Source: Cordylochernes scorpioides
Taxonomy: Eukaryota; Arthropoda; Arachnida; Pseudoscorpiones; Chernetidae
Direction of reading: 5' to 3'
Length of the DNA stretch: 64,000 bases
Assembly: GCA_030710605.1 (NCBI GenBank)
Contig: CP092865.1
Coordinates: forward strand, 28,862,190 to 28,926,189
Below, piece after piece: positions 3,300 to 62,698 of the stretch. The translations under genes and the position numbers were made by a program. The notes under the pieces were generated by a model, which was not told where the DNA came from, did no database searches, and worked only from the letters and a program-made list of their open reading frames with translations. How positions within the stretch are numbered: position 1 is the stretch's first letter; each line of letters starts with the position of its first letter.

Positions 3300-3440
3300 A
3301 TGCAAAACAGGCTGATACAATTTAGAACGTAATGGTAGATTAAATTGTTTTCTGGGAGGGTTCAATACTGATGAGCCAGGCCCTCCCAATATTTGATTCA
3401 TTGCACTAAGGACAGTTGGTGCAATAAATAGATAATACTT
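3300..3440 (+). repeat. Interspersed repeat family A, partial copy
   Basis: Shares a core (GGGAGGG, a short spacer with CTGATGAGCC, CCCTCCC, then a CAGTAAGGACAGT-like end) with copies near 9.8, 23.6, 24.0, 25.0, 36.8, 41.9, 42.3 and 43.2 kb. The GGCGAAACC box of other copies is degraded here. Confidence 0.7.
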
Positions 3441-8689: not shown

Positions 8690-9010
8690 ATGTAATTTAC
8701 GAAACATATTCTCCAAATACAATAGACACATTCTAGAATCTACAATCTCCAACGACAATAACAGCATAAACAGAAGAATCGATTTACCCCAACAGTTCCA
8801 GCATATTCAGCACAGATAATCCCACCCCCATTGAAACTGTCCCCCTAACCCTCTACAACTGGAAACTATTTGTATTTGATTTTTCAATTTATTTCTGTGA
8901 ATCTCTATTACATGTATGTTACACGCCTTTACCGAGTCTTGATGTCCTGATGAAGCGCGACCGCGTGAAAGCTTGCTTCTTAATATCTGAATAAAGAAAC
9001 TCTGAAAATA
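8690..9010 (+). mobile_element. Penelope-like element, 3' fragment
   Basis: Aligns by eye with 39745-40020, which directly follows a GIY-YIG endonuclease reading. The frame around 8740 contains SINRRIDLPQQFQ, similar to SINRSIDIQEQL in the minus-strand fragment near 39.2 kb. It ends in CTGATGA (8947-8953), a possible stem and GAAA (8967-8970) followed by GCTT, the hammerhead-like 3' signature of Penelope-like elements. Confidence 0.6.
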
Positions 9011-9738: not shown

Positions 9739-9887
9739 GAAAATTCGAAACTATTATAGACGCGTATGATTCTTTTAAAATAAAACAATTTCTACTGTCC
9801 TTACTGTAATGGAAAAATTAATGGGAGGGCCTGGTTCATCATTTAAAAAATAAGAATCATACGCGTCTATAATAGTTTCGAATTTTC
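9739..9887. repeat. Foldback repeat, family A related, truncated
   Basis: Arms starting GAAAATTCGAAACTATTATA at 9739 and ending with its complement at 9887 enclose a GGGAGGGCCTGG core. It is a shorter relative of 36776-36975. Confidence 0.75.
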
Positions 9888-9974
9888 TTAATAAAGTATC
9901 TTTATAGCTTTGTTTGAATACTATTTTAAGATTCTAAAATAAGTCTATTGTATTTGGAGAATATGTTATTGTAA

Positions 9975-13313: not shown

Positions 13314-13744
13314 TAACTATCATATAGTATAGAAGAATACTAATCGAATAAGTTTATGAATAGAACAAGCAATATACAATTTGGACGATACCGATTCACA
13401 AAGATCTAGAATAGAAAAATAACAGTTTGCCAAGGATCAGAAAGAGATACGCTCTGAATCTCCAAAACCATCTCCAGTTGGTTAAGAAGGATCTGAATTA
13501 AGAATACAAATTTTAAACAGTAGAAGAAACATGGGTCTCTCTGTGATTTCGTTACAGAAAAACAAAAAGTCAATGAAATGTCTAAGATGAAAAATTTTTT
13601 TGACGGTTTCTTCCCCATTAACGTAACAAGTCAGAGATTTACATGTTTTTTGGCCAATAAGAGCTTTGTCTACATGTACTACCAGTCTACAGTTCAGTAG
13701 AATATCGATAAAATGAAAAAGAAGATTATTAGAAGACATATGTA

Positions 13745-13910
13745 GTGGCTTTTCTTTATTTATCAAGAAAATAGGTTGGCCAAATATCAAGGAACAGGCT
13801 AAATCAATGTTTAGTTGATTTCTGTTCTACTAGATGGCACTCTGCCATCTGTAAAGTACATGTGCTCGTGGTCAGGATATGTCTTATTTGGTTTTAATAT
13901 CAACACTTGA
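13745..13910 (+). repeat. Repeat family B, half copy
   Basis: Matches the end of the hammerhead-bearing unit at 46600-46720 (GGTTGGCCAAATA, TTGATTTCTGTTC, GGTCAGGATATG). The ribozyme half is missing. Confidence 0.65.
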
Positions 13911-14324
13911 TCTTTTTTCTATTATTTTTATACCTATATAGTGTTTATTATGACTCTCCACCAGAAAGCTGTATAGCTGATTGCCTATTGTTGATACTTT
14001 CTACTATTATTTGACTTCATCCTTTCTTTGACTTAGGAACGAATCTATGTAAGATGCCTCAATAAAAAGTTCTTTGTTGAGGATGAATTGTCTTGAACGA
14101 AACAAAACACGCTCGAATGTTTGAAAACCTAACCTAATCAAGAATTTATGCCAGATGGAATGTTAATGAATCAGCGCTTTCATCTTCCCATTCCTTAGGA
14201 GGGATTAATTGTTGATATTAAAATTAATTATTAAAGTTTTAGTATGAAGGATTAATTCGTAACCTTTCAACTTTGAATATTATTTATTATTAATGGTAAG
14301 GATACAAAACAAACTTAGTATACA

Positions 14325-14835
14325 AGTGCAACTGAAAGTTGCTGATGGCTTGCGCCATCTATCGGAATAAATATCAACTATTCTCGTTGATTTTTAATTA
14401 TTCCAGAATTGCCCAAATACCCATTCTTGATTAATCAAGAAAAGCTAACCACGAACGCGTTTCGGGCTTTTCTTGATTAATCAACAACAACAACAACAAC
14501 AAAAAAGCCTTTATTTAGGGTCACTGACCCTATACAGGATTCACCAGAGGTATGCATAAGAACAAAGCAGTGAGACAAAGGAAATAACGATATATACAGA
14601 GTAAGAAGAAAATGAAAAAAAAAAAAACAAGAAAAGAAGAAAAAAAAAAAGAAAGAGGGAAGCAAGAAATCAACACAAAAAGAGTAGCAGTAAGAAAGTG
14701 TTTCTTGATTAATCAAGAATGGGTATTTGGCCAATTCTGGAATAATTAAAAATCAACAATAATAGTTGATATTTATTCCGATAGATGGCACAAGCCATCA
14801 GCAACTTTCAGTTGCACGATAAAGAGATGCTTTTT
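14325..14835. repeat. Foldback repeat interrupted by a LINE fragment
   Basis: Arms 14328-14484 and 14701-14817 are reverse complements. They begin TGCAACTGAAAGTTGCTGAT and include GGCTTGCGCCATC. The centre contains a family B remnant with the complement of GAAACGCGTTCGTGG. A retroposon sits in the middle. A relative lies at 19630-19850. Confidence 0.8.
14485..14700 (-). mobile_element. Truncated retroposon with 16-bp target duplication
   Basis: Flanked by TTTCTTGATTAATCAA at 14469-14484 and 14701-14716. The minus strand ends in stem AGGGTC...GACCCT, AAATAAAGG and a long GTT repeat. The 5' part is a pyrimidine-rich low-complexity tract. Consistent with target-primed reverse transcription. Confidence 0.88.
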
Positions 14836-14978
14836 TCATAATTTATGCCCCTTTTCCCAGTACAATATCACATTTGTACTATTTTTTCACTTAGTATACA
14901 AGGTTGTTCCAAAAGATCATAAAAACTTACAAAAAATTGAAATACCAATATTATTCGCCGTTATGTATAATGTCTTTG

Positions 14979-15164: not shown

Positions 15165-15300
15165 TGCAACCTCAGAACAATTTTTAACGCTTTTCCAAAT
15201 GCTTTATTTTTATTTATTTCTCCTGACGAAGACAAAGATTTTTGTTGAAACGTTGAGAAAATAAAACTTTAATTGGCCGAAGTGTCTATTTATTTTTACA
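15165..15300 (+). repeat. Single arm of foldback family D
   Basis: Shares AACAATTTTTAACGC, CCAAATGCTTTATTT and the hammerhead-like segment with both arms of 41106-41370. Confidence 0.75.
15213..15265 (+). ncRNA. Hammerhead-ribozyme-like motif (type I)
   Basis: Order is as in a type I hammerhead. Stem I 5' strand TTTATTTCTC (15213-15222), core CTGACGA (15223-15229), one extra A, stem II GACAAA/TTTGTT (15231-15236 with 15241-15246), GAAA (15247-15250), CGTT (15251-15254), then stem I 3' strand GAGAAAATAAA with one bulged A. Stem III is only the self-complementary ACGU, so it would need to pair between two molecules, as in minimal dimeric hammerheads. The extra A and the G-U pair closing stem II may weaken it. 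Confidence 0.7.
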
Positions 15301-17530: not shown

Positions 17531-18933
17531 CACTGCGTGACATTGAAAATGGAACACCAAGAAATAGTGGCCAGAAAATTATGCAAATTTCAGGGTAGAC
17601 GCGCCTAACCGAGTTATGCGCAGCTCTCGTGCGCACATGGAGTAAGATATAAGGGAAGGAACTTGCAGAAAGGACAGTATTCGTGTCGTTATTTCTTCAA
17701 GGAAAATCATTGTAGAAATTTTGTTCTTGTGTCAAAAGACACGTGTAATAACAGAGAATGCCAGGTCATCGTAAACGGAGGCAGTTCAAGCAGACAGACG
17801 CTTTTACGAGGGGCATGGTGATCGGACTGAAAAGGGCAGGTTGGTCCATACGTCAAATCGCAGCTAATACACACCTTGGTGCGTCCACGGTGCACCGACT
17901 GTGGAGAAGATGGTTGGAACAAGGAAATGTGGCAATTTATAGGAATGCCGGTGCAACCAGAGTGACGTCAGCACGTGTGGATCGGCGTATCCTTCGACAA
18001 GCAGTGGCGGCCCCACAAGCCACTTGTACCGCCATCCTGCAATATGTGCAAAATACCCTAGATCATTCCATCTCGACCAGAACCATTTCCCGTCGATTGG
18101 TTGCTAATGGCTTGCACTCATGCCGTCCGCTAAGAAGACTGCCATTGACCCCACCGAATAGGCGCCAACGTTTGGAATGGTGCAGGGCTAGATCGACGTG
18201 GATGACGGAATGGCACAGGGTCGTGTTCTCAGATGAGTCGCGTTTCTGCTTGTCCAGTGATAGTCGCCGTGTACGCGTGTGGCGTCGACGTGGAGAAAGG
18301 TCCAATCCGGCAGCAATTGTGGAACGCCCCACCGTGCGACAACGTGGAATCATGGTTTGGGGCGCAATCGCGTATGATTCCAGGTCACCTTTACTTCGTA
18401 TTCAGGGCACTATGACGGCCCAACGATACGTTGATGATGTGCTGCGACCGGTGACACTCCCCTACCTTCAGGGGGTACCCAATGCCCTTTATCAGCAGGA
18501 TAACGCCCGACCGCACACTGCTCGCATTAGCCAACAAGCTCTGCAAGATGTACAGATGCTTCCCTGGCCACCGTACTCTCCTGATCTCTCACCAATCGAG
18601 CACGTCTGGGAAATCATTGGGCGCCGTTTGCATGCCTTGCCACAGCCGCGTTCAGAAGACGAACTGTGGCAAATGGTTGAGAGGGAATGGAGAGCCATCC
18701 CTCAGGACGCCATCCGTACACTGATTGACTCTCTACCTAGACGTGTTGCTGCGTGCATCGCCGTCCGCGGTGGTCCTACTTGCTACTAAGCCGACGCCGT
18801 TCTCGCTCTGTATTATGACTATCATTTTGAAATAAAGATCACTTATTGTTCGTCCCTGTCTCTCTCTGTCTGCCGAGTTTCATCACTTTCTGGCAACTAT
18901 TTCTTGGTGTTCCATTTTCAATGTCACGCAGTG
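17531..18933 (+). mobile_element. Tc1-like element, apparently intact
   Basis: Inverted ends of about 40 bp start CACTGCGTGACATTGAAAAT, with TA outside (17529-17530 and 18934-18935). Length 1403 bp. It lies 37 bp after the maT-type element in the same orientation. Confidence 0.95.
17758..18789 (+). CDS. Tc1-family transposase, 343 aa
   Basis: Uninterrupted frame. The N-terminus (roughly residues 1-110) holds paired-type helix-turn-helix DNA-binding motifs (GWSIRQIAANTHLGASTVHRL and a second helical segment). The DDE domain has VFSDESRFC, YQQDNARPHTA and SPDLSPIEHVWE as Asp, Asp and Glu sites. I count 32 residues between the second Asp and the Glu, two fewer than canonical Tc1 (34). The length suits a functional Tc1 transposase. 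It would excise the element at its inverted ends and insert at TA. With both ends intact it is the best candidate for an active transposon here. Codon use is GC-richer than the flanks, consistent with recent arrival. Confidence 0.95.
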   Translation: MPGHRKRRQFKQTDAFTRGMVIGLKRAGWSIRQIAANTHLGASTVHRLWRRWLEQGNVAIYRNAGATRVTSARVDRRILRQAVAAPQATCTAILQYVQNTLDHSISTRTISRRLVANGLHSCRPLRRLPLTPPNRRQRLEWCRARSTWMTEWHRVVFSDESRFCLSSDSRRVRVWRRRGERSNPAAIVERPTVRQRGIMVWGAIAYDSRSPLLRIQGTMTAQRYVDDVLRPVTLPYLQGVPNALYQQDNARPHTARISQQALQDVQMLPWPPYSPDLSPIEHVWEIIGRRLHALPQPRSEDELWQMVEREWRAIPQDAIRTLIDSLPRRVAACIAVRGGPTCY

Positions 18934-18984
18934 TATATTGTGAATACGCAAACATCAAAAATATTAAAATTTTCCAATATTTTG

Positions 18985-19330
18985 AAAATTTGCATATCCT
19001 GACCGCTCACATTTTGACCACTCACATGAACATTTTAGATGGCAGGCGCCATCTAGTAGAGCAACAATAAACTAAACGTTGATATAGCTTGTTCCATGAT
19101 ATTTGGCTAATCCAATTTCTTGATCAATCAATAAAAGTAAACCACTTACGCGTTTCGGGCTGTTCTACCAAAAATGTCTTGATTTATTAAGAAATGGATC
19201 AATGGATCCATTCATCAATGAATCATGGAACAAGTTGAATCGACGTTTAGTTGATTTTTGTTCCACTAGATGACGCTCTCCTATCTAAATGGTCAGGATA
19301 TGGCAATTTTGTTTTTAATATCCACACCTT
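18985..19330. repeat. Repeat family B foldback
   Basis: Two family B halves face each other (18990-19190 and 19195-19325). Each has the CATATCCTGACC end and a CTAGTGGAAC-type block. The central GAAACGCG sequence is present in complement at 19148-19165, but the CUGANGA box is lost. Confidence 0.65.
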
Positions 19331-19549
19331 TTTTATAATTTTCTCATTTTTTAACATATATATAATTATAAAGATTTAATTATATGGGCTGAGAGTGGAT
19401 GTATTCATATGCTAAAAGAGACACATCTCCCTTTAAAAGGCATTAAAACAATGTATTTTTTTTATCACCTAGTGTAAAACATAATGGTGGTACTAAAGAT
19501 TGTGCCACAACTACAGTTCTGTTAAATCCAGACAAAAACCCAACCTGTA

Positions 19550-19860
19550 TACCATATGTGAAAAAATAGTACAAGTGTGACATTGTACTGGGATAAGGTG
19601 CATAAATTAAGAAAAAGGCATCTCCTTATCGTGCAACTGAAAGTTGCTGATGGCTTGCGCCATCTATCGGAATAAATATCAACTATTCTCGTTGATTTAG
19701 CATCTCCTTATCGTGCAACTGAAAGTTGCTGATGGCTTGCGCCATCAATAGGAATAAATATCAACTTAAATATCAAGTTGATATTTATTCCGATAGATGG
19801 CGCAAGCCATCAGCAACTTTCAGTTGCACGATAAGGAGATGCCTTTTTCTCTGTATACCA
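19550..19860. repeat. Foldback cluster related to 14325-14835
   Basis: Three copies of a segment containing GTGCAACTGAAAGTTGCTGA, two direct and one inverted, lie between 19635 and 19840. The flank 19555-19630 matches the complement of 14820-14890, so the two loci share more than the palindrome. Confidence 0.75.
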
Positions 19861-23035: not shown

Positions 23036-23041
23036 AAATAA

Positions 23042-23310
23042 AAAAGGCAATCCTGACCAGAAGAACATGTGCTTTTCAGAAGGCAGAGCGCCATCTGGTG
23101 GAACAGAAATCAACTATTCATTGATTTAACCTGTTCCCTGATATTTGGCCAACCCAATTTCTTGATAAATCAAGAAAAGCCATCCACGAACGCGTTTCGC
23201 GTTGTTGGCGCTCGTCAGCGTGGAATAGGCTGTACCACTGCGACCAAAAAGATTTTTGGTCCCAGTGACTTCCCGAAAAACCAGGAAATGGGTATTTAAG
23301 GCCAAACTTG
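23042..23310 (-). repeat. Repeat family B, full unit with hammerhead
   Basis: About 270 bp, colinear in reverse with 46440-46728. On the minus strand it runs from ATTTACGCAAGTTTGGCC, through a hairpin GACCAAAAAT.../TTTTTGGTC, the ribozyme, then GATATTTGGCCAACCC in complement, to the end GGTCAGGAT. No coding capacity. Size and ribozyme content resemble animal retrozymes. Confidence 0.75.
23184..23223 (-). ncRNA. Hammerhead ribozyme, type I minimal
   Basis: All conserved parts are present in order on the minus strand. Stem I CCACG (plus-strand 23219-23223), core CTGACGA, stem II GCG/CGC closing a CCAACAA loop with the favoured G-C first pair, GAAA, then CGCGTT, then stem I partner CGTGG (23184-23188). 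A further T-A pair extends stem I to 6 bp. A-CGCG-U is self-complementary, so stem III is two to three pairs and would form best between two RNAs. The cleavage triplet is GUU. This is the strongest ribozyme candidate here. Confidence 0.85.
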
Positions 23311-23523
23311 CGTAAATTTTATTTTTTTTCTATTGTTTTTTCATAAAATATATATACAATAATTTTACGCCGTGAATAGAATAAACCATATGATATTAAC
23401 AATGATAAAGAGAGAAAAAAACTGTACAAAAGAAAGAAGTGTCTGGCAATATGTACAATCAGCATAATATAAATTATAAATTTCTTAAAAGATATTTGTT
23501 GCTATATAATTTAAAATATATCT

Positions 23524-24503
23524 AGTAAATTAAATTTTATTGCCATCTATCGTTAAAATTTTACACAAATAAATTTACTGGCAATGCGTTTCTTTTAAAT
23601 ATCATCAAATATTATCTCTACAGACCTTACTGCAATGATGTGAGTTATTGAATGAGAGGGCTTGGCTCATCAGTAGTGAACCCTCTCAACGGTTTCGCCA
23701 AATTAATCTCTAGACCGCTCTACTACTGTATTGGACTGGTTTGTTATATACCCTGCATTTTATATGAAAGGCAGCTTAGGGGTGTTTAGTGAACTATGGA
23801 CATAAGCTTATAGGTCTGTAGAGGTACATACATATAATTTCAAGGTATTGTATCGAGCAAAGCTCTTCCGCAAAATATGTTTTATAACCAATATATATTA
23901 GTAAATTAAATTTTATTGCCATCTATCGTTAAAATTTTACACAAATAAATTTACTGGCAATGCGTTTCTTTTAAATATCATCAAATATTATCTCTACAGA
24001 CCTTACTGCAATGATGTGAGTTATTGAATGAGAGGGCTTGGCTCATCAGTAGTGAACCCTCTCAGCGGTTTCGCCAAATTAATCTCTAGACCGCTCTACT
24101 ACTGTATTGGACTGGTTTGTTATATACCCTGCATTTTATATGAAAGGCAGCTTAGGGGTGTTTAGTGAACTATGGACATAAGCTTATAGGTCTGTAGAGG
24201 TACATACATATAATTTCAAGGTATTGTATCGAGCAAAGCTCTTCCGCAAAATATGTTTTATAACCAATATATATTAGTAAATTAAATTTTATTGCCATCT
24301 ATCGTTAAAATTTTACACAAATAAATTTACTGGCATGCGTTTATTTTAAATATCATCAAATATTATCTCTACAGACCTTACTGCAATGAGCCAAGCCCTC
24401 TCATACAATAACTCATATCATTGCAGTAAGGTCTGTAGAGATAATATTTGATGATATTTAAAAGAAACGCATTGCCAGTAAATTTATTTGTATAAATTTT
24501 AAA
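23524..24503 (-). repeat. 376-bp tandem repeat (family A) with inverted end
   Basis: AGTAAATTAAATTTTATTGC begins at 23524, 23900 and 24276, giving two full nearly identical 376-bp units and a partial third. From about 24390 the beginning of the unit returns in inverted orientation to 24503. Each full unit carries, on the minus strand, GGCGAAACC and 20 bases later CTGATGAGCC. Confidence 0.9.
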
Positions 24504-24538
24504 ATATATCTACAAAAGGTATTGAATTTAATATACAT

Positions 24539-24700
24539 TTATTTACTGGAAATAAAAATACTTGGATCAGTTACTATTAAATTATTGTCGATTCTATAGT
24601 CTTGAAAAACAGGACAATCTAGTAAAAGATGTATTGAGGTTTGTTCCTCATGTCCACAAAAACAACTCGAGTCTTCCACCGTTTTATTTATATTTATTAT
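24539..24700 (-). pseudogene. LINE ORF2 C-terminal fragment
   Basis: The minus strand reads DSSCFCGHEEQTSIHLLLDC, then PVFQDYR and a stop. CxCGxEx5HLLLxCPxF is the non-LTR polymerase C-terminal signature. A close relative is at 37850-37990 on the plus strand. Confidence 0.75.
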
Positions 24701-24984
24701 TATACAAATGGAGGCAAAATATTTTAAAATATATATATATAAAAAGGACAAATTAATAAATATAGGCTTCCAGTGCATAAATAAGGAAGCAAGTAATACA
24801 TGATTAAGCTGTAGTTATTATTAAGAGATGTACATCTGGTCTTCACTACTAGTTTTTGTAAATATACTTTTCCCTGGATGTCTGTTATTTTTACCCAATC
24901 TGAATTGTTTTCTCCAAAACCGATCATATATTGTAGTAAGAATATAAAACAAATGAAAACATTAAGAAGCGAAAGTTTCTTTTC

Positions 24985-25265
24985 ACAAATTAAACAAAAT
25001 TCTACTGTCCTTACTGCGATGAAAAAATATTGGGAGGACTTGGCTCATCAGTGATGAACCCTCCAAGCGGTTTCGCCAATTTAATCTACCAGACCGCTTC
25101 TTTAGAGCTCTAATACTGTATTGGATCATTCTGCTTTTATATTCTATACTGAAGGGTGACATTTTAGAAATCGTATTTAAGCAAACTATGGACATAAGCT
25201 TTTAGGACAGTAGAATTCCATTTAAATATTTGCATCGAGCAATGCTCTTCCGCAAACAATAAGTA
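24985..25265 (-). repeat. Repeat family A, full-length copy
   Basis: The minus strand runs from GCGGAAGAGCATTGCTCGAT through a TCTAAAAT region, GGCGAAACCGCTTGGAGGG and CTGATGAGCC to CAGTAAGGACAGTAG. Colinear with 42100-42400. Confidence 0.75.
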
Positions 25266-25379: not shown

Positions 25380-25460
25380 TTTTTAAAAATCGGCCAAGTA
25401 CGCTTTCGGGCTGATGGCCTTTGTCAGCGTTGTGAAGATTACATCTTAACGACCCACTAA
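25380..25460 (-). repeat. Degenerate hammerhead-like 3' end
   Basis: The minus strand has CTGACAA, a GGC/GCC stem, C, GAAA. The conserved G of the core is A here and stem I is not convincing. Probably a worn member of the Penelope/retrozyme repeat group. Confidence 0.35.
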
Positions 25461-27659: not shown

Positions 27660-28830
27660 CTATGAGTATATAAGTACACAATATTGATATTACGTGTTAT
27701 TTTCAGTAGAAAACTATGCAATCAGTAGTGGATACGGCGTTATGGGTTTCAAATAGACTGAGTACACAATATTGATATTATGTGTTATTTTCAGTAGAAA
27801 ACTATGCAATCAGTAGTGTGATACGGGGTTATAGGTTTCAAATAGACTGAGTACACAATATTGATACTATGTGTTATTTTCAGTAGAAAACTATGCAATC
27901 AGTAGTGTGATACGGCGTTATGGGTTTCAAATAGACTGAGTACACAATATTGATATTATGTGTTATTTTCAGTAGAAAACTATGCAATCAGTAGTGTGAT
28001 ACGGCGTTATGGGTTTCAAATAGACTGAGTACACAATATTGATATTATGTGTTATTTTCAGTAGAAAACTATGCAATCAGTAGTGTGATACGGCGTTATG
28101 GGTTTCAAATAGACTGAGTACACAATATTGATATTATGTGTTATTTTCAGTAGAAAACTATGCAATCAGTAGTGTGATATTGCGTGTTGGGTTTCAAATA
28201 GACTGAATATAAGTACACAATATTGATATTACGTGTTATTTTCACAGTAGAAAACTCTTCAATCAGTATTGTGATACGACGTGTTGGGTTTCAAATAGAC
28301 TGAGTACACAGCATTGATATTATGTGTTATTTTCAGTAGAAAACTATGCAATCAGTAGTGTGATACGGCGTTATGGGTTTCAAAGAGACGGAGTATATAA
28401 GTACACAATATTGATATTACGTGTTATTTTCAGTAGAAAACTATGCAATCAGTAGTGTGATACGGCGTTATGGGTTTCAAAGAGACGGAGTATATAAGTA
28501 CACAATATTGATATTAAGTGTTATTTTCAGTAGAAAACTATGCAATCAGCAGTGTGATACGGCGTTATGGGTTTCAAATAGACTGAGTACACAATATTGA
28601 TATTATGTGTTATTTTCAGTAGAAAACTATGCAATCAGTAGTGTGATACGGCGTTATGGGTTTCAAATAGACTAAGTACACAATATTGACATTACGTGTT
28701 ATTTTCAGTAGAAAACTATGCAATCAGTAGCGTGATACGGCGTTATGGGTTTCAAATAGACTGAGTATACAATATTGATATTAGTAGAAAACTCTGCAAT
28801 CAGTAGTACGAGTCGAAAACATAGTAAGTA
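27660..28830 (+). repeat. 89-bp minisatellite, 13 units
   Basis: GTACACAATATTGATATTA recurs at 27674, 27762, 27851, 27940, 28029, 28118, 28213, 28304, 28401, 28498, 28587, 28676 and 28765 with small changes. Most spacings are 88-89 bp. Two adjacent units (28304-28497) are 97 bp because of a GAGACGGAGTATATAA variant. Each unit contains TTATTTTCAG followed by TAGAAAACT. Near-identity indicates recent expansion. Confidence 0.97.
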
Positions 28831-35860: not shown

Positions 35861-36770
35861 GGTAAAATGCAAAAAAAAAAATTCCTTTTTAAATAAGTAT
35901 AGAATTTTTATAACGACTAGACACATTTTGAAACACAAAATGGTGATTCGTGTAATTTACAAACATAGAGATATTTGTATAATTAAAGTTCAGAATCATT
36001 AAATATTATGAAACATTCTAATGAGAATAAATAAAGAGCTCGAAACGTTTTTATTAATAAAATTACAAAATATTTCAACAATCATGTTGCTATTTTTTAA
36101 TGAGGGATTTCTTGACCTGATCTTGATTGATTTGGTCATTATATAGTTTTTTTATGTGTCCTAGATTCCAACTGGATTGCTTGTCCATCAATTATTTTTT
36201 TATTGAAAGATTTTCAAACATTTTTCTAGTTATTATTCTGCTTTCCTACGTTTCATGTTATTATGAAGTTTATTGAGATATTTTGATAACAAATGAATTC
36301 AAAAGAAACTTTATTTATTTGTGAAAAGAAACATTCGCGTCTTAATGTCTTCATCCGTTATCTATAGATAGAGCGTTATAGTTTTGTATGAATTCAAAAG
36401 TGTAACTTTAGTCCCATAATTAATATTTATATCTTTAAATTAAGCACCTTTTGTGTTTTGAAGGTTTATAATTAGTTCAATATTTTGAAATATTTCACAT
36501 ACGTATACAAAAGCCTTAATTAAGACTGTTTTAAAAAAAGAGGAAGATAGGAGAAGGAGTTGATCACTGAAGGATTTTATTGAACAAGGACTTAAGACTC
36601 AAAGTCACCAACCGCACGCTGAAAGGAAGAGAGTACACACACTAACAAACGACATCTTATTTACATACACAGTAACACACTACAGAGTAACAAGTCACTG
36701 GTCAAACAATAATAATTCTATTATTGTCATATTTAGAAATGCGCAAGAATTGCCGATTTCAACAAAGACA
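35861..36770. other. AT-rich stretch with repeat scraps
   Basis: 36300-36410 resembles the outer part of family A (GAAACATTCGCGTCTTAAT). At 36030-36060 a lone GAAACGTT could be the 3' half of a hammerhead but has no intact core. No gene. Confidence 0.45.
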
Positions 36771-36775
36771 TATAT

Positions 36776-36975
36776 GAAAATTCGAAACTATTATAGACGC
36801 GTATGATTTTTTTTTAAATTAAACAATTTTGCCCTTACCGCAATGGAAAAATTAATGGGAGGGTTCACCACTGATGAACCAGGCCCTCCCATTAATTTTT
36901 CCATCGCAGTAAGGGTAATAGAAATTGTTTAATTTTTAAAAGAATTATATGCGTCTATAATAGTTTCGAATTTTC
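36776..36975. repeat. 200-bp foldback, family A type
   Basis: Nearly perfect palindrome from GAAAATTCGAAACTATTATA (36776) to its complement (36975). The centre is GGGAGGG, TTCACCACTGATGAACCAGG, CCCTCCC. A shorter relative is at 9739-9887. Confidence 0.9.
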
Positions 36976-41141: not shown

Positions 41142-41194
41142 TTATTTTCTCAACGTTTCAACAAAAATATTTTTTTCTTCGTCTGGAGAAATAA
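41142..41194 (-). ncRNA. Decayed hammerhead motif, left arm
   Basis: Minus strand: stem I TTATTTCTC with partner GAGAAAATAA intact, GAAA and CGTT present, but the core reads CAGACGA, so the conserved U4 is A. Probably inactive. Confidence 0.55.
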
Positions 41195-41280
41195 TTATAA
41201 ATAAAGCATTTGGCAAGGCGTTAAAAATTGTTCTCAATTCAATTAACAATTTTTAACGCCTTGCCAAATGCTTTATTTAT

Positions 41281-41336
41281 ATTATTTCACTTGACGAAGA
41301 CAAACAAAATTTTGTTGAAACGTTGATATAATAAAA
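41281..41336 (+). ncRNA. Decayed hammerhead motif, right arm
   Basis: TTGACGA (41291-41297) replaces CUGACGA. Stem II ACAAA/TTTGT, GAAA (41317-41320) and CGTT follow. Stem I is partly lost. Confidence 0.5.
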
Positions 41337-41819: not shown

Positions 41820-42080
41820 TATTACAGTTTCTTTCACACATAAATCAAATTTCTACTGCCCTTACACTACGATGAAATTAGAGCTCTAAAGAAGCGTTTT
41901 GGTAGATTAAACTGGGCAAACCGCTGGGAGGGTTCACCACTGATGAGTCAAGTCCTCCCAATATTTTTTATCGCAGTAAGGACAGTAGAGATTTGATTTA
42001 TGTGTGAGAAAGAAACATTCGCATCTTAATATCTTCATTCGATATGTATAGATGGCGTGTTACTACTTTGTATTAATATA
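41820..42080 (+). repeat. Repeat family A copy
   Basis: Contains GGGCAAACCGCTGGGAGGG, CACCACTGATGAGTC and CAGTAAGGACAGTAG. One base of the GGCGAAAC box is missing. Confidence 0.75.
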
Positions 42081-42094
42081 TGTTTAACTTGTCC

Positions 42095-42435
42095 TTATTG
42101 TTTGCGGAAGAGAATTGCTCGATGCAGATATTTAAATGTATTTCTACTGTCCTAAAAGCTTATGTCTATAGTTTGCTTGAATACCATTTCTAAAATTCCA
42201 CCCTTCAGTGCAGCATATAATAGCAGAATGATCCAATGCAATATTAGAGCTCTAAAGAAGCGGTCTGGTAGATTAAATTGGGGAAACCGCTGGGAAAGTT
42301 TACCACTGATGATTCAAGCCTTCCAAAAAATTTTTCATCGCAGTGTAAGGACAGTAGAATTTGAATTATTTGTGAGAAAAGAAACATTCGCGTCTTTAGT
42401 CTTCATTCGTTATATATAGATGGCGCGTTATTGCT
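42095..42435 (+). repeat. Repeat family A, full-length copy
   Basis: From GCGGAAGAGAATTGCTCGAT to the ATAGATGGCGCGTTATTGC end. Has GGGGAAACCGC and CTGATGATTC. The small frames here are shadows of the repeat. Confidence 0.75.
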
Positions 42436-46439: not shown

Positions 46440-46728
46440 CATATTTACGCAAGTTTGGCCTTAAATACCCATTTCTTGGTTTCTCAAGAAGCCTCTGGGA
46501 CCAAAAATATTTTTGGTCGCAGTGGTAGAGTCTACTACACACTGACGAGCGCCAACAGCGCGAAACGCGTTCGTGGTTGGCTTTTCTTGATTTATCAATA
46601 AAATGGGTTGGCCAAATAAAAAGGGAACAGGTTGAATTAATGTTAAGTTGATTTCTGTTCCACTAGATAGCGGTCTGACATCTAAAAATCACATGTGCTC
46701 CTGGTCAGGATATGCCTTTTTTATTTTT
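46440..46728 (+). repeat. Repeat family B, full unit with hammerhead
   Basis: Colinear with 23042-23310 in opposite orientation: ATTTACGCAAGTTTGGCC, hairpin GACCAAAAAT/ATTTTTGGTC, ribozyme, CACATGTGCTCCTGGTCAGG, and a T-rich end. Confidence 0.8.
46537..46576 (+). ncRNA. Hammerhead ribozyme, family B copy 2
   Basis: Core CTGACGA (46542-46548), stem II GCGC/GCGC (46549-46552, 46558-46561), GAAA (46562-46565), CGCGTT, CGTGG. Core boxes are perfect. Stem I has weakened to CAC/GTG with a mismatch next to the core, so cleavage may be poor. Confidence 0.75.
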
Positions 46729-62461: not shown

Positions 62462-62698
62462 TTTTGAACGAAAAATCGTTAATTATTTTAAAGAGAAATA
62501 ACAACTATTTCTATCCTTAGGGATGAAGTATGAAAGGATGAATTGTGAAGAGTAATGATGAACGGAAAAATAAAAGTGTCCAGGGATTATTTTTCCGTTC
62601 ATCATTACTCTTCACAATTCATCCATTCATACTTCATCCCTAAGGATAGAAATAGTCGTTATTTCTCCTTAAAATAAATTACTATTTTTCGTTCAAAA
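62462..62698. repeat. 237-bp foldback
   Basis: Arms from TTTTGAACGAAAAATCG to the complement at 62698, loop AAGTGTCCAGGGAT. Both arms contain CCTTAGGGATGAAGTATGAA or its complement. Single arms at 10510-10690 and 48300-48450. Confidence 0.92.

Follow-up and report, generated by a model that had tools for sequence, protein, structure and literature searches.

Several described kinds of hammerhead ribozyme come close to sequences in a 64-kb window of genomic DNA from the pseudoscorpion Cordylochernes scorpioides (contig CP092865.1; "the window" is the whole stretch of 64,000 nucleotides analyzed), and these systems are summarized here. Metatranscriptomes were the main source of the permuted type-SGC hammerhead when it was described in 2023; its discoverers report no type SGC from the genome of a known organism, and SGC-1 to SGC-3 cleave in their natural flanks at 0.007-0.13 per minute (PMC10085705). 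Metazoan retrozymes of the non-LTR (long terminal repeat) kind are small hammerhead repeats of 150-450 bp with type I ribozymes; those of amphibians are described as canonical type I with a weak stem III, the stem III of axolotl HHR_Amex1 is of the palindromic kind, and the amphibian hammerheads cleave efficiently as dimers (PMC7229834). According to a review, most invertebrate type I hammerheads possess a stable helix III (PMC7761336), and Perreault et al. describe palindromic stem III sequences that permit dimers (PMC3088659, Figure S8 legend). Finally, the hammerheads of Penelope-like elements are described as devoid of helix III and tertiary contacts (PMC6155905).

The window contains a type I hammerhead in a short interspersed repeat, termed E1, and, about 200 bp away on the same strand, a 376-bp tandem repeat whose hammerheads have their conserved blocks in a permuted order. 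The reading that we favor, and consider probable, is that E1 is a genuine type I hammerhead in an old repeat and that the tandems of 376 and 366 bp are retrozyme-like elements with permuted hammerheads. A literature search returned no report of a hammerhead ribozyme from pseudoscorpions, with most subscription journals and preprints outside the search and earlier reports possible. For hammerhead ribozymes in Arachnida, the same search brought up only a virus paper, and the papers citing PMC10085705 were, as far as seen, software papers with no new type-SGC occurrences.

Permuted hammerheads in tandem repeats

The tandem and the other members of its hammerhead family are as follows, N17 being the nucleotide 3' of which cleavage is predicted.

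23516..24389, minus strand: 376-bp tandem repeat, 2.3 copies with 99% matches, carrying type-SGC hammerheads
24024..24099, minus strand: complete type-SGC hammerhead u1, N17 at 24089, GUC triplet
23648..23723, minus strand: complete type-SGC hammerhead u2, N17 at 23713, 376 nt from u1
25026..25100, minus strand: complete type-SGC hammerhead s25k, a diverged relative, N17 at 25092
42257..42331, plus strand: complete type-SGC hammerhead s42B, N17 at 42265
41890..41965, plus strand: type-SGC relic s42A, block G decayed, N17 at 41899, 366 nt upstream of s42B
3325..3393, plus strand: type-SGC relic s3k, GAAA lost
36857..36898, plus strand: family relic reduced to block C and the linking helix, lying at an inverted-repeat apex
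9770..9841, minus strand: family relic that retains some of block C and a single side of the linking helix

The DNA itself shows the order of the blocks, the core nucleotides, the helices and their covariation, the period of the tandem and how the copies are related. On the minus strand the tandem unit reads AGCGGUC^UAGAGAUUAAUUUGGCGAAACCGCUGAGAGGGUUCACUACUGAUGAGCCAAGCCCUCUC (^ marks the predicted cleavage site), with ACCGUU in the second unit, and its blocks follow in the order S (the cleavage site), G (GAAA) and C (CUGAUGA). Judged by this order, the unit represents the non-circularly permuted type SGC of Eckert et al. (2023) and not a circular permutation of the three classical hammerheads. 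In u1, stem III is formed by AGCGGU/ACCGCU, stem I by UAGAGA/UUCACUA, stem II by UUUGGC/GCCAAG, and the helix that links the two latter stems by GAGAGGG/CCCUCUC. All the attributes of the type are present, namely stems I-III, the connection of stems I and II by a short link on one side and by a helix on the other, and 0 nt between stem III and that linking helix. The S-G-C order, CUGANGA and GAAA, stems I-III and the far-side helix between stems I and II are shared with published type-SGC/HRIMA-1 RNAs, and the distance of 0 nt falls within the published 0-44 nt (PMC10085705). In contrast to those RNAs, the link between stems I and II spans 4-5 nt here and typically 3 there, and the present copies reside in animal genomic DNA as tandem repeats of 366-376 bp (PMC10085705).

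A scan for the S-G-C arrangement, designed after the 24-kb array had been read and hence post hoc there, with s25k and s42B newly found by it, returned four complete sites (24049, 23673 and 25051 on the minus strand, 42306 on the plus strand). Each has blocks S, G and C in order with stems I-III and the linking helix. Their paired-position sums are 27, 27, 28 and 29, and the best of the 14 hits in 1000 shuffled sequences reaches 25; a slightly stricter version of the scan gave hits in 4 of 300 shuffles. The copies at 42 kb form a second tandem, two units 366 nt apart with 84.7% identity over 209 positions, the first of which lacks block G, and the SGC tandem is therefore not an artefact of a single locus.

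The four complete copies are not independent, u1 and u2 being near-identical units of one tandem. An alignment of the four keeps 93.9% of 98 cells paired, against 32.7-53.1% in slid controls. Four of its 25 pairs are altered on both sides. Two of these lie in the linking helix, while stem I has one (A-U/G-C) and so has stem II (C-G/G-U), which places covariation in three of the four helices; column shuffles reach four such pairs in 56 of 500 trials and six changed cells in 8 of 500. Addition of the decayed s42A as a fifth row gives a similar result (91.9% paired). Six rows, comprising s3k as well and thus 6 of the 8 copies (the two near 36.9 kb and 9.8 kb, which lack blocks S and G, were excluded), give 89.7% paired cells and 5 of 25 pairs altered on both sides, the double change in stem III coming solely from the decayed s3k.

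Of the two candidates, the 376-bp type-SGC tandem fits the retrozyme idea better than the E1 repeat does. Like metazoan non-LTR retrozymes (PMC7229834), the tandem consists of short units within 150-450 bp that each carry a hammerhead, at a period of 376 bp or, at 42 kb, a spacing of 366 nt with one of the two hammerheads decayed. It differs from the retrozymes described in that source in that its hammerhead has the order S-G-C and not that of type I, and in that its RNA is not unusually self-paired (PMC7229834). The fold z score of the unit is -1.18, and we rejected the notion that its RNA is strongly rod-like. Rfam gave no match to any hammerhead over 23600-25200, and scans of IMG/VR with two SGC patterns returned 0 matches each.

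Inverted pairs recur in both hammerhead families. The relics at 36750-36960 (plus strand) and 9770-9890 (minus strand) are inverted repeats with SGC block C near the apex, and another inverted pair lies at 24379-24502.

The E1 hammerhead and its repeat family

The features of the E1 family in the window, two full copies and five partial or decayed relatives, are listed here.

23036..23319, minus strand: E1 repeat, about 285 bp with a rod-like predicted RNA (second copy and profile search; fold z -5.62)
23183..23224, minus strand: E1 type I hammerhead core with stem I of 6 bp, stem II of 3 bp and palindromic stem III ACGCGU
23179..23230, minus strand: E1 outer helix, GCC (23230-23228) with GGC (23181-23179), beyond the stem I internal loop, covarying among E1, E2 and E6
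46441..46726, plus strand: E2, second repeat copy, core kept, N17 at 46571 (fold z -4.54)
25380..25443, minus strand: E6, diverged and decayed type I hammerhead (CTGACAA), N17 at 25399 (profile from E1 and E2 only, E 8.1e-5)
13746..13889, plus strand: E3, relative truncated at the hammerhead (E1/E2 profile, E 1.6e-38)
18960..19325, minus strand: E4, foldback relative with both arms and half a hammerhead (CAGCCCGAAACGCGT) at the apex (E1/E2 profile; fold z -8.99)
14326..14838, no strand assigned: E5, interrupted foldback relative whose arms have 96.6% identity over 117 positions, its minus strand carrying half a hammerhead (GCCCGAAACGCGTTCGTGG) (E1/E2 profile, arm inversion)
19557..19850, no strand assigned: E7, foldback relative without hammerhead (E1/E2 profile, arm inversion)

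The RNA of the E1 minus strand reads UCCACG-CUGACGA-GCG-CCAACAA-CGC-GAA-ACGCGU-U^CGUGGA, with CTGACGA placed at 23218. This is exactly the hammerhead that the original prediction had described, with CUGACGA, a GCG/CGC stem II, GAAA and stem I in type I order; its GUU cleavage triplet is borne out as well, cleavage being predicted 3' of U at 23189. In the whole window, E1 was the sole site returned by a loose scan for type I hammerheads, and only 3 of 200 dinucleotide shuffles contained any site. A second type I scan accepted a stem I of at least 5 bp, a palindromic short stem III or a longer one of at least 3 bp, and at most 2 unpaired bases at stem II. It found two sites, E1 and one at 15223 (plus strand), with a site in 0 of 200 shuffles, a count that is post hoc for 15223 because the stem II tolerance was introduced once that site was known. 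A CTGATGA...GAAA site at 8947 (plus strand) was not returned by the second scan and was dropped.

Comparison with curated covariance models, proposed at the outset as a check, gave a divided answer. No Rfam family matches in the 64-kb window at gathering thresholds. Under lax settings Hammerhead_HH9 gives the best hammerhead match, to 23169-23234 on the minus strand, with 23.7 bits where the gathering threshold is 52, so that the type I assignment falls short of the curated cut-off (E is 0.0017 when only 601 bases are searched and 0.18 over all 64 kb). Rfam by itself is not decisive for this hammerhead; what decides is block order, homologous copies and covariation. In the E1 sequence CUGANGA, GAAA and a UH site for cleavage follow one another in type I (CGS) order, and stems I and II are present; on this intact core and order we take the motif at 23184-23223 to be a genuine hammerhead. 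A scan of IMG/VR with one E1 pattern gave 0 matches, and the frame antisense to E1 gave no match as a protein query.

E2 is identical to E1 at 266 of 300 positions, confirming that the hammerhead lies in a short interspersed repeat. In an alignment of E1, E2 and E6, few as these sequences are, 83.3% of 36 pair cells are kept, compared with 25.0-47.2% in slid controls; 6 of 12 pairs are formed in all three rows and the remaining 6 in two of three. Three of the 12 pairs, in the outer helix and stem II, are altered on both sides, a number that column shuffles reach in 42 of 500 trials. The outer helix is GCC/GGC in E1, GUC/GGC in E2 and AUC/GAU in E6, with two of its three pairs altered on both sides. 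Because it is paired in all three copies, the E1 layout, with its stem I internal loop and outer helix, is that of a canonical type I hammerhead and not a minimal one. The word "minimal" in the original prediction must accordingly be given up, stem I running past the internal loop into a covarying outer helix. A covariance model built from E1, E2 and E6, whose matches to those three hold by construction, also matched 33056 (plus strand, E 0.03); this was judged a chance match, with an open frame on the opposite strand and most of stem II and block G missing.

The self-complementary stem III, ACGCGU, suits dimeric cleavage as had been proposed, in the manner of the axolotl type (PMC7229834). 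With HHR_Amex1 and the newt satellite, as described there, E1 shares the type I order and a stem III of one A-U pair around a palindromic tetraloop; E1 differs in coming from an arthropod and in not being tandem, the likeness being one of description and not of sequence (PMC7229834). A strongly self-paired RNA of 170-400 nt, as in metazoan retrozymes, is predicted for the repeat (z -5.62; E2, z -4.54). Taken together, E1 belongs to an old, non-autonomous, rod-folding family, and by itself adds one more member to a known kind of hammerhead.

Foldback relatives and Penelope-like hammerheads

Three of the relatives, E4, E5 and E7, are inverted arm pairs. E4 and E5 retain at their apex the hammerhead's 3' half, and E4 is predicted to fold into a long rod. 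Such architecture would be expected if the repeat were a foldback or MITE-type DNA transposon (miniature inverted-repeat transposable element) in which the hammerhead is incidental, an explanation that we consider improbable. A hairpin in the downstream part of the arm is kept as a helix in all seven arms, with 94.2% of cells paired against 29.8-53.8% in slid controls; 2 of its 15 pairs are altered on both sides. As many such pairs arise in 298 of 500 column shuffles, and as many changed cells as in the hairpin, five, in 6 of 500. An RNA-cutting motif would have no known use to a DNA transposon. Target duplications of MITEs usually measure 2-9 bp, shorter than the direct repeats flanking E5 (14 bp, at 14313 and 14889) and E7 (12 bp, at 19545 and 19851), both of which contain GTATAC. 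Among random flank pairs of like size, an exact 14-bp repeat occurs in 202 of 20000 and a 12-bp repeat in 645 of 20000.

E5 and E7 share one end and vary at the other, and together with the direct repeats this looks like target-primed insertion, although the shared end of E5 lies on the 5' side of the hammerhead strand, contrary to a simple target-primed reading. E4 has no readable direct repeat. E1 and E2 are flanked by TA-rich stretches, because of which their target duplications are unreadable. E3 has a possible 9-bp target duplication (13739-13747 and 13935-13943, one mismatch); if this is real, no more than about 10 nt would separate the 5' end of E3 from the position at which the hammerhead is predicted to cleave.

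A further observation concerns an arm block, approximately CCACYAGATGGCGC, at 23088-23101, which is well conserved and recurs at the same place in E2-E5. It may correspond to the CTCF binding consensus.

A third hammerhead, which looks like the Penelope-like minimal type described in PMC6155905 and PMC11167929, lies elsewhere in the window.

15217..15260, plus strand: minimal Penelope-like hammerhead with CUGACGA, bulged stem II, GAA and palindromic ACGU, N17 at 15254

Its short palindromic stem III recalls that of E1, and the TA-rich DNA around E1 and E2 is reminiscent of the preference for AT-rich sites reported in PMC11167929; both would agree with the E1 hammerhead being the minimal ribozyme of a Penelope-like element and its repeat a truncated Penelope derivative. 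We regard this origin as improbable too. In contrast to the Penelope-like minimal form, which has no outer elements for contacts between stems I and II, E1 possesses the outer stem I helix (PMC6155905, PMC11167929), and Pfam recognized no Penelope reverse transcriptase among 18 scanned open frames, the window holding more frames than these.

The surrounding DNA is rich in mobile elements, with mariner/Tc1-type transposases and retrovirus-like integrase and RNase H domains (Pfam). A Tc1-type transposase at 17752-18786 has 81-99% identity, mostly at least 95%, to proteins of C. scorpioides, the only organism named among the 120 listed of 4225 matches, which points to this species or a close relative as host, though a mobile element gives weak evidence of species; a seven-transmembrane (7TM) receptor in the window matched a single distant protein. 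An 89-bp tandem repeat occupies 27673-28783 (12.2 copies, 92% matches). Hairpins scoring as microRNA-like below the Rfam cut-offs, on both strands, lie at 62509-62651, 41177-41299 and 19710-19832, the last inside foldback E7.

Weighing the evidence and a model for processing

Several results weigh against the reading of genuine hammerheads in retrozyme-like tandems. To the post hoc design of the S-G-C scan and the dependence of u1 and u2 are added, on the side of the tandems, the lack of a double change in stem III among the four complete copies, the loss of block G in 4 of the 8 block-C occurrences of the family, the weak stem I of u1 (-0.7) and s25k (-0.8) and weak stem II of s42B (-0.5), and a 376-nt unit whose self-pairing is unremarkable. 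The ribozyme is also only moderately better kept than the aligned rest of the unit: in local alignments, 57 of 64 ribozyme positions are identical between u1 and s25k and 154 of 197 in the aligned remainder, the corresponding values against the 42-kb units being 98 of 118 and 200 of 279. On the side of E1, an intact CUGANGA is limited within its family to E1 and E2, and E2 has lost stem I pair 2.1 (G to A), with a predicted stem I probability near 0. The hammerhead fold of E1 without stem III is computed at -14.1 kcal/mol against a minimum free energy of -19.7, and the double-hammerhead dimer at -35.5 against -44.7 kcal/mol. Stem II has a predicted probability of 0.005 because CGCG(AAA)CGCG pairing competes with it. 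Predicted folding thus favors an inactive hairpin, and outside a dimer E1 may be a weak ribozyme. Nor do E1 and E2 resemble the tandem units of metazoan retrozymes (PMC7229834), both being solo with no tandem partner of the same kind in the 64-kb window; as a solo copy, E1 more likely represents a dispersed remnant whose activity is weak or lost.

Many of these points, namely the broken copies, the inactive predicted fold of E1, the weak stem I of u1, the missing Rfam match over 23600-25200 and the moderate conservation, would also be expected if E1 were merely a type I fossil in a repeat like a short interspersed nuclear element (SINE) and the SGC arrangement were a chance or degenerate one devoid of catalytic meaning. 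We judge this account unlikely: the four complete SGC sites, spread over three places, all score higher than any hit from 1000 shuffles, and among those four copies stem I, stem II and the linking helix show covariation.

Under the favored reading of E1 as a genuine type I hammerhead beside retrozyme-like SGC tandems, a read-through transcript of the tandem would be cut by each permuted hammerhead within its own unit, yielding a 376-nt RNA; this step is proposed because published type-SGC RNAs cleave. Folding of the unit predicts a helix that closes the 3' end (AGCGGUC) near the 5' end, where it would be well placed for a host ligase to form a circle. The circular RNA would in turn serve as template for a borrowed reverse transcriptase and give rise to new tandem copies. 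Ligation, circles and reverse transcription are put forward by analogy with retrozymes as described in PMC7229834, and cleavage, circularization and reverse transcription alike are proposed steps. For E1, whose stem III is a palindrome, cleavage would be expected chiefly upon pairing of two copies.

Both kinds of hammerhead could be cut from one transcript. Five predicted cleavage sites lie within 2.2 kb on the minus strand, at 25399 (E6), 25092, 24089 and 23713 (SGC) and 23189 (E1), and transcription would have to run through the whole cluster from 25399 to 23189. The hammerhead of E6 is directly connected with an SGC unit, which from about 25321 matches the 42-kb unit at 87.6% over 242 positions.

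On this evidence we lean towards the view that type-SGC hammerheads reside in the nuclear genomes of animals, where they serve a new class of tandem retrozymes as processing ribozymes. A home in animal DNA gives the type-SGC hammerhead an owner, a tandem genetic context and relatives with which it can be compared, and suggests that retrozyme-like elements need not rely on type I or type III hammerheads. Since type I hammerheads coexist here with permuted ones, the locus is also suited to studying how the parts of a ribozyme become rearranged. If the view is true, the ownerless type-SGC RNAs of metatranscriptomes may include transcripts of animal elements and not free RNA replicons only.
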